Virus record (IMG/VR): IMGVR_UViG_3300005617_000114
Span: 1-25,796 of that record
Origin: a virus
Direction: 5' to 3' (one strand)
DNA: 25,796 bases
Shown here: positions 7,427 through 10,327 of the stretch, in pieces
How positions within the stretch are numbered: the first letter of the stretch is position 1
Layout: every line of letters starts with the position of its first letter
Notes under the pieces: generated by a model
What the model was told of the DNA's origin: nothing
Databases searched by the model: none
Seen by the model: only the letters and a program-made list of their open reading frames with translations
Program-made: the position numbers and the translations under genes

Positions 7427-7957
7427 CTACTGCTTAGACTTCGGAACTTCGTCTTTTTCCAGGGTCTTCTTGAATCCGACCCCAGCCGCAAGGTGGAACA
7501 CCACGACGCCTTCGGGATTCATGAACCCAGGAGCCGCGACGCTTCCATTCTTGCGAAGCCCTTCGATGGCACCTTCGACGGCCATGGTCAGGAACTCGCC
7601 GCGGTACAGCACGGGAACAACGTGGCAACACGCAGGGCGTTCAAGCTCCCACCGCGACACGTTGAACAGGCTGAATCGCTTCTCGCCGATGGGATACTTG
7701 CGTTGGATTCCCTGCCCCCACCACTCGCCAAAGTGCCGACCAGGGCCGAGGGTCAAAAGCTCTTCCTTGTGGTCCATGGCCCACCGGGCGAACCCATAGT
7801 TGTCATCCTCCGGCGTGATCCAACGGGCACGACTCCCGACAAGAAACTCTCCATCTTCACCGATGAAAATCTGGGCGTTCGTTCCGTCCAGTTTTTCAGT
7901 GATGATGCACTCCCTCGATAGTCTTGCCATCTTCGGGAACTCTGCGAACTCGTTCAT
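7427..7957 (-). CDS. ATP-dependent RNA ligase (nucleotidyltransferase family)
   Basis: 176 aa. The covalent nucleotidyltransferase motifs appear in order: motif I EKLDGTN (21-27), with Lys22 the likely AMP-accepting lysine; SR at 42-43 (motif Ia); FGEWWGQGI (77-84, motif III/IIIa); EGVVV (149-153, motif IV); and GFKKT (161-165, motif V). This fits the PF09414 RNA ligase family (T4 Rnl2 and relatives), which seals 3'-OH/5'-phosphate RNA breaks, for example in cleaved tRNA. It is shorter than Rnl2 (334 aa) and has no C-terminal domain, so it is a catalytic core only. RBS GGAGGGG precedes the ATG. It is the last gene before the terminator, in the same transcript as the tRNA-like elements. Confidence 0.85.
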   Translation of the reverse strand: MNEFAEFPKMARLSRECIITEKLDGTNAQIFIGEDGEFLVGSRARWITPEDDNYGFARWAMDHKEELLTLGPGRHFGEWWGQGIQRKYPIGEKRFSLFNVSRWELERPACCHVVPVLYRGEFLTMAVEGAIEGLRKNGSVAAPGFMNPEGVVVFHLAAGVGFKKTLEKDEVPKSKQ

Positions 7958-9613: not shown

Positions 9614-9853
9614 CTAGCGCCGGGCCCGCTTCTGCCAGCCCTTGAGTTTGGTGCGCTTGGGGATGCCAGGACGGCCCGCGTGAGGATTGGTGCAGACGCC
9701 CTTACTGATCCTCGGCCAGTTGTCGGAATCAACGGGATAGGGGCCAACTCCCCGGCCTTGAATGCGGGCCCGCTCGCGCTTGGTCAATCTGGCCGGTTTG
9801 GGATTGCCGGACTTGAAGCCGTCTTCAACGAGAGGGCTGGTGTAGTAGTTCAT
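9614..9853 (-). CDS. Small basic protein of unknown function
   Basis: 79 aa, very basic towards the C-terminus (RPGIPKRTKLKGWQKRARR). ATG at 9853 has AAGGAGG 9 bases upstream. It is the first protein gene after the tRNA-like cluster in the P3 transcript. The charge suggests nucleic-acid binding, but no motif is recognised. Confidence 0.6.
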   Translation of the reverse strand: MNYYTSPLVEDGFKSGNPKPARLTKRERARIQGRGVGPYPVDSDNWPRISKGVCTNPHAGRPGIPKRTKLKGWQKRARR

Positions 9854-10055
9854 ATCGCAGGGCCTCCTTGACCCGATGGAAGCCCCTTACGGGGGCGAGT
9901 CGCGTAGTTGAATTGTTCCGTGATTACCCGGCAAGGATTTGCACCGCCGCAGTCTACAAGGCCCACGATTGCCCGTCCACCTTTGACGCTAACAGGTGGC
10001 TTCCCCAAGGCACATCCGGATTTTTCCGGGACTTTTCGCCAGCGTCGGGGATAGA
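9854..10055 (-). other. Non-coding stretch with weak tRNA-like and hairpin signals
   Basis: No gene in about 200 bases. Minus strand carries a hairpin CCACCT...AGGTGG (9977-9999), a segment ending in GGTGCAAATCC (about 9936-9946) that resembles a mutated T-arm, and upstream of it CTTGTAGACTG, resembling an anticodon loop with GTA. No pairing acceptor stem could be found, so it is not called a tRNA. A GC-rich hairpin at 9890-9905 has no T-run and is a weak terminator at most. Confidence 0.4.
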
Positions 10056-10111
10056 TGATGGTTGGGGGAGTCGAACGCCCCTGGCTCAGTCGAGCCACGC
10101 CATGAACCATC
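10056..10111 (-). other. Short tRNA-like element lacking a D arm
   Basis: Minus strand, 56 nt. GATGGTT (10105-10111) pairs perfectly with AACCATC (10057-10063). The T-arm has loop TTCGACT closed by GGGCG/CCCCC with one mismatch. Between them is one hairpin TGGCTC-GACT-GAGCCA. A normal tRNA is 73 nt; the missing 17 nt equal one D arm. No CCA is encoded. Either a decayed tRNA or a tRNA mimic. Confidence 0.45.
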
Positions 10112-10149
10112 CTAACATGGAGCCGACCACCTCCTTATAGGTCGGAGTT

Positions 10150-10263
10150 TTGGACCGGGTGGAATCGAACCACCGAACAGCTTTTCCGGTTTCACCGTGC
10201 GTAGTGCCACTGTCACTCCACCGTTGCGCATCACCGTGCCTTAACCTACTCGGCCACGATCCA
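10150..10263 (-). tRNA. tRNA-like gene with class II ends and an oversized middle
   Basis: Minus strand, 114 nt. Acceptor TGGATCG (10257-10263) pairs with CGGTCCA (10151-10157). The D arm GCC-GAGTAGGTTAA-GGC is typical of Leu/Ser tRNAs, and the T arm GGTGG-TTCGATT-CCACC (10158-10174) is perfect. CGGT (10233-10236) can pair with ACCG (10187-10190) as the anticodon stem, followed by a 12-nt variable arm GAA-AAGCTG-TTC. But 42 nt lie within that stem where 9 are normal, so the amino acid cannot be assigned. If the loop begins ATGCGC, position 33 is T and the anticodon would read GCG. The 9-mer GCACGGTGA occurs at both sides of the insertion (10231-10239, 10192-10200). Function as a tRNA is uncertain. 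Confidence 0.55.
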
Positions 10264-10267
10264 ATCA

Positions 10268-10293
10268 CGGCGGAGTTCACTGACCGTCCGCCG
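10268..10293 (-). other. Hairpin upstream of the tRNA-like element
   Basis: CGGCGGA (10268-10274) and TCCGCCG (10287-10293) form a perfect 7-bp stem with a 12-base loop, 5 bases before the 5' end of the tRNA-like element on the minus strand. There is no T-run, so it is not a standard terminator. It may mark RNA processing between the small gene and the tRNA-like cluster. Confidence 0.4.
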
Positions 10294-10327
10294 ACGGCAA
10301 GCCCGAACGCGGGCCACGTCTCCCAGC

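Follow-up and report, generated by a model that had tools for sequence, protein, structure and literature searches.

What could a phage do with a tRNA-like gene that has a tRNA body but no normal anticodon arm? The question is raised by a gene on the minus strand (10150-10263) of the virus record IMGVR_UViG_3300005617_000114, whose 25,796 bases were analysed at full length and are referred to below as the window. In this gene (element 1) a 50-nucleotide (nt) hairpin, with 33 surplus bases, takes the place of the anticodon arm. A second tRNA-like element lies next to it, and genes of the same anatomy, with highly variable arms, recur in other phages. We give roughly even chances to the reading that element 1 encodes a tRNA-like RNA which does not decode and whose tRNA shape probably serves as a handle in the processing or stabilisation of RNA. 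For the window gene, the production of an RNA, its non-decoding nature and its role as a handle are what we infer from the sequence.

A tRNA body without a normal anticodon arm

The Rfam tRNA model (RF00005) matches element 1 with 37.2 bits (gathering score 29, E 2.6e-6) if relaxed filters are used and 501 nt are searched. With default filters a scan of the whole window does not detect the element, nor does ARAGORN (default) call a tRNA there; both misses are caused by the insertion. The arms were further delineated with a constrained fold (minimum-energy structure and pair probabilities, with the tRNA body held fixed) and a strict scan of both strands of the whole window, which demands a perfect acceptor of seven base pairs next to a T arm and allows TTC loops only. 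The features of element 1 are as follows (basis in brackets):

10150-10263, minus strand: element 1, tRNA-like gene with a class II serine-type body and an expanded or replaced anticodon arm (Rfam tRNA; complete acceptor, D and T arms)
10257-10263, minus strand: 5' strand of the acceptor stem, TGGATCG, with its partner at 10157-10151 (sequence, constrained fold, strict scan)
10238-10254, minus strand: D arm, GCC-GAGTAGGTTAA-GGC, with GG in the loop (sequence, Rfam match, constrained fold)
10187-10236, minus strand: expanded arm at the anticodon position, with CGGT/ACCG at its base, 42 nt inside and AGTG/CACT near the tip (constrained fold)
10231-10239, minus strand: direct repeat GCACGGTGA, copy 1 (repeat search)
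10192-10200, minus strand: direct repeat GCACGGTGA, copy 2, 39 nt further on (repeat search)
10175-10186, minus strand: variable arm, GAA-AAGCTG-TTC, 12 nt (sequence, constrained fold)
10158-10174, minus strand: T arm, GGTGG-TTCGATT-CCACC, 5/5 paired (sequence, Rfam match, constrained fold)
10150-10157, minus strand: 3' strand of the acceptor stem, CGGTCCA, and discriminator A; CCA is not encoded (sequence)

All seven acceptor pairs (TGGATCG/CGGTCCA) are formed, one of them U-G, and the positions of the tRNA elbow and tertiary contacts are all kept (U8, A14, G15/C48, G18G19, T54, T55, C56 and A58). Element 1 thus has the acceptor, D arm and T arm of a decoding tRNA. It does not have the anticodon stem of five base pairs with a 7-nt loop, and it agrees with the description of a pseudo-tRNA, i.e. 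a tRNA fold without a usable anticodon arm. Since the total folding energy is ordinary (z 0.22), the evidence for the element lies in its tRNA profile and not in its stability. The original prediction, made without database searches, had the coordinates exactly right and left the strand unstated, which is now assigned. Its readable acceptor, D and T arms and 12-nt variable arm agree with both the Rfam score and the sequence. Of the checks proposed with it, the covariance model recognizes the body under relaxed filters, and Aragorn by default calls nothing.

Inside the expanded arm, the count of 42 nt within CGGT/ACCG is likewise exact. Both nested pairs that had been pointed out exist as sequences and AGTG/CACT is retained in the best fold, but TGCG/CGCA is displaced, as the minimum-energy constrained fold pairs CGC/GTG instead. 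Pair probabilities amount to 0.91-0.98 for CGGT/ACCG and AGTG/CACT, with 0.59 for the outer A-U of the latter. The 9-base direct repeat GCACGGTGA was recovered as described, in two copies 39 nt apart; a repeat as long as this is seen in 1-2% of dinucleotide shuffles.

A second element and recurrence in other phages

The original prediction reported element 1 only and missed a second tRNA-like element (10111-10056), which begins 38 nt downstream on the same strand:

10056-10111, minus strand: element 2, tRNA-like, 56 nt, without an anticodon arm (strict scan; weak Rfam tRNA-Sec match)
9854-10327, minus strand: stretch of about 470 nt without a convincing gene, containing both elements (GC content by codon position)

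Element 2 reads GATGGTT-CATGGCGTGGCTCGACTGAGCCAG-GGGCGTTCGACTCCCCC-AACCATC-A and consists of an acceptor (GATGGTT/AACCATC), a single hairpin of five base pairs (GGCTC-GACT-GAGCC) and a T arm (GGGCG-TTCGACT-CCCCC). With Rfam it scores low (tRNA-Sec, 19.3 bits, E 0.32). From its sequence it is likely to be a tRNA-like gene, with a weaker case than element 1. The strict scan of the window yields elements 1 and 2 only (an extra row represents the same T arm with an alternative 5' strand), at a background of 0.33 per Mb strand (3 Mb of random sequence with the composition of the window) or 0.017 expected in the window. An open reading frame (ORF) of 86 amino acids at 9850-10110 has a GC content by codon position of 0.64/0.60/0.53, against about 0.62/0.43/0.73 in the phage genes, which is a non-coding pattern. 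Around the locus, default and relaxed Rfam scans found no RNA beyond the tRNA-type matches. A third tRNA-like element was suspected at about 9990-9915 from GGTGCAAATCC; its T stem pairs poorly, it falls outside the TTC-only strict scan, and we do not claim it.

Two further observations concern the same stretch. An 8-nt inverted repeat, CCGTGATT (10270-10263) and AATCACGG (9925-9918), encloses both elements and may be due to chance. A hairpin CCGACC/GGTCGG (10149-10080, minus strand) has AAGGAGG in its loop, directly before a 10-codon ORF that overlaps the start of element 2; it is possible that this hairpin acts as a leader or regulatory site.

Genes of similar build were collected from IMG/VR with two patterns. 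Pattern 1 (D arm and T arm of the Ser type, separated by 50-80 nt instead of the normal 40 or so) retrieved 33 viral contigs, 26 of which were kept, with odd middles of 47-75 nt; the other seven were set aside as ordinary, merely long-variable-arm or neighbouring-tRNA matches. Acceptor and T stems are perfect in most of the 26, and ARAGORN calls almost none of these phage genes. Pattern 2 (class I bodies whose D and T arms nearly adjoin) retrieved 60 viral contigs; 50 of these lack an anticodon arm and are well paired in the acceptor (6/7 or better) and in the T arm (4/5 or better), and in 32 of the 50 the acceptor is paired 7/7. These anticodon-less genes with complete acceptor, D and T arms (about 50 contigs among L177-L234, L035 and L042) come in some cases apparently from isolate genomes.

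It is the arm that differs between such genes. Over 15 Ser-type genes the mean identity is 0.89 for the body and 0.59 for the middle, and some pairs share 98% of the body and about 50% of the middle. Three records with near-identical flanks (L017, L024 and L035) carry a second element whose anticodon arm has a 5-nt loop, contains a 51-nt insertion, and is absent, respectively. Such variability is not what is expected of decoding genes. Taken from these sequences, it is fairly well supported that we are dealing with a recurrent group of unannotated phage genes that preserve acceptor and elbow and let the anticodon arm grow, shrink or vanish. Full-text searches of the open-licence literature turned up no description of tRNA-like phage genes that lack the anticodon. 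In cellular genomes the pattern 1 matches listed come mostly from thermophilic archaea and very few from bacteria. Rare tRNA-like genes with enlarged middles, uncalled by ARAGORN, occur on Streptomyces and Methylobacteriaceae MAG chromosomes (L068:1863-1982 and L103:2970-3072); these are possibly of prophage origin.

The setting of such elements is most regular in rumen phages, 15 contigs of which share a conserved non-coding RNA of about 440 nt:

L016:4200-4634, L017:3063-3508, L022:80-513, L026:4156-4610, L036:178-620 and L167-L176: RNA of about 440 nt

This RNA has no Rfam match, and its covariation is modest, with double changes in 12 of the 63 pairs that were predicted. In 13 of the 15 contigs it is flanked on both sides, at a near-fixed distance, by a tRNA or a tRNA-like gene; L169 has none upstream, and the downstream one of L170 is less well paired. 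The upstream (5') place is occupied by a canonical Ser or Leu tRNA in some rumen phages and by an aberrant element in others, which points to the tRNA shape rather than to decoding. Between L017 and L024, L035 and L042 the flanking elements are more than 90% identical and the stretch between them is different, so that this stretch is an exchangeable cassette. The simplest reading would be that the rumen sites need the tRNA shape rather than decoding, in the manner of tRNA punctuation, i.e. the release of an RNA between two tRNAs by the enzymes that process tRNA.

Alternative readings and known systems

Genes for a terminase, portal, primase, helicase, RecE, RecT and RNA ligase are present in the record, all on the minus strand. 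The ligase bears on one of the alternatives:

7427-7957, minus strand: small RNA ligase (PF09414), 176 amino acids, 64% identical to Caulobacter and Rhizobium phage proteins

This identity hints at an alphaproteobacterial host. The relatives of the terminase, RecE/RecT and the ligase are phages of bacteria, and judged by these proteins the host side looks bacterial.

Three readings had been offered for the extra bases, i.e. an unusual intron, an extended anticodon arm or a disabling insertion. The extended (or replaced) arm is the best fit, given that many unrelated phages show this anatomy too; the intron is weaker and the insertion less likely. If the 33 surplus nt were removed as an intron, a decoding tRNA of about 83 nt with the loop AUGGUGA would result, spliced either through an archaeal-type bulge-helix-bulge or by a nuclease together with the RNA ligase of the phage. 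With introns allowed, ARAGORN indeed calls a tRNA-Thr(ggt) here, taking 33 nt as the intron and leaving a loop that looks normal (U33, G37, A38), a ligase of the PF09414 family is at hand, and the cellular pattern 1 matches listed are mostly archaeal tRNAs that ARAGORN reads as intron-containing. Yet the Thr(GGU) anticodon would sit on a class II serine-type body, the spliced form has one G.A mismatch, the normal-looking loop arises from the direct repeat, and the intron is predicted at 35/36 where 37/38 is usual. Of the 26 phage elements, 3 receive an ARAGORN intron at 37-41 (the other phage calls are scattered), against 90 of 119 among the cellular matches listed. No bulge-helix-bulge was found in the window gene, by a weak test that recovered the archaeal positives only in part. 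The bacterial affinities of the terminase, RecE/RecT and ligase also speak against the archaeal route, and the RNA ligase is present in only 3 of 38 related records (the window and 37 others, mostly fragments), for which reason ligase-coupled processing was rejected as a general rule. We regard the intron as improbable.

A formerly normal phage tRNA might instead have been disabled by a recent local duplication or insertion and now be decaying. The 9-nt repeat brackets 39 nt and is rare in shuffled sequence, phages often carry tRNA remnants, and no relative was found that would show conservation. Removal of one repeat unit, however, leaves a 3-nt loop and yields no tRNA that ARAGORN would call, the acceptor, D and T arms show no decay, a second non-decoding element adjoins the first and similar structures are common in other phages, which makes this account doubtful. 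That the body is kept while the arm varies freely would also suit a decoy or sponge, a tRNA-like RNA that would protect the phage by engaging tRNA enzymes of the host, modification enzymes or defence proteins aimed at tRNAs. PMC10865867, citing van den Berg et al. 2023, reports that phages evade tRNA-cutting defences via anticodon-loop changes. A free decoy leaves the fixed bracketing in rumen phages unexplained, and we consider this quite unlikely for the window gene.

Several observations weigh against the handle as well. For 43 of the 50 anticodon-less loci the surrounding 900 nt contain no further element; as most of these elements are single, punctuation cannot be general. The two elements of the window are only 38 nt apart and bracket no RNA of about 440 nt, the non-coding stretch 9854-10327 has no excess folding stability, and a promoter or terminator was looked for at the locus and none was seen. 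Searches with RecT, the tRNA sequence and the whole-window DNA gave no homologue of element 1 or its locus; they covered annotated phages, IMG/VR, plasmids and 385 genomes from the class to which a Methylobacteriaceae bacterium belongs (Alphaproteobacteria). What recurs is the kind of gene, and the copy in the window has no close relative in these collections. L006, the phage nearest in its terminase, portal, RecE and RecT, has a single compact element at a different place, namely a 65-nt tRNA-like element between RecE and RecT (L006:1860-1924) with acceptor ATCGCGT/GCGCGAT and T loop TGCAATT.

Known RNAs resemble element 1 in part. Bacterial Y RNAs of the YrlA type (RF02553) combine a tRNA-mimicking body with a long extra stem, as does element 1; a search of the window with RF02553 gave nothing up to E 10, and a Y RNA was rejected, as the 38 records, most of them fragments, hold no TROVE/Ro60 gene. 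The tRNA-like domain of tmRNA likewise joins an acceptor to a T arm and lacks the usual anticodon arm, whereas element 1 has a D stem with GG; tmRNA was rejected, with no tmRNA from ARAGORN, no Rfam tmRNA match and no mRNA-like tag frame. Archaeal tRNA-Ser/Leu with bulge-helix-bulge introns likewise have a class II body with 10-40 extra nt near the anticodon, but among the matches listed their intron is mostly at 37/38, unlike in element 1, and the phage gave no sign of archaeal affinity. Phage tRNA islands are known around GOLLD and ROOL RNAs (PMC12286853), and in the wider class, too, phage tRNAs lie next to or within large structured RNAs; in contrast, no Rfam match to either was obtained, and the window has no large conserved RNA shown in it. 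By analogy, the closest published precedent appears to be tRNA-Other of Bacillus cereus, which folds like a tRNA, has no function in translation and is a proposed structural element inside a larger regulatory RNA (PMC3399842). The window gene differs by its replaced anticodon arm and by its position in a phage, in a small cluster.

The tRNA shape as a possible handle

Look-alikes in many unrelated phages probably do something other than read codons. For element 1 we favour a non-decoding RNA. Its serine-type body has acceptor, D, variable and T arms, with a 50-nt hairpin replacing the anticodon arm, and together with element 2 it makes up a small cluster of tRNA-like genes in a stretch of this tailed-phage genome that lacks a convincing coding gene. 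The tRNA shape might then be a handle for host tRNA enzymes, with RNase P acting at the 5' end, 3'-processing enzymes at the other and possibly CCA addition; such a handle would cut out, cap or stabilise a phage RNA, and codons would not be read. More tentatively, and at less than even chances, many phage lineages may encode tRNA-like RNAs with absent or replaced anticodon arms that recruit host enzymes to carve out and protect non-coding RNAs, of which the window would be a two-element example.

Phage tRNAs are usually taken as codon-supply genes and are detected by programs that require an anticodon arm. If anticodon-less tRNA-shaped genes are common in phages, they would constitute an overlooked class of phage RNAs, and one could test with them directly whether phages rely on the tRNA enzymes of the host for processing or stabilising non-coding RNAs of their own.
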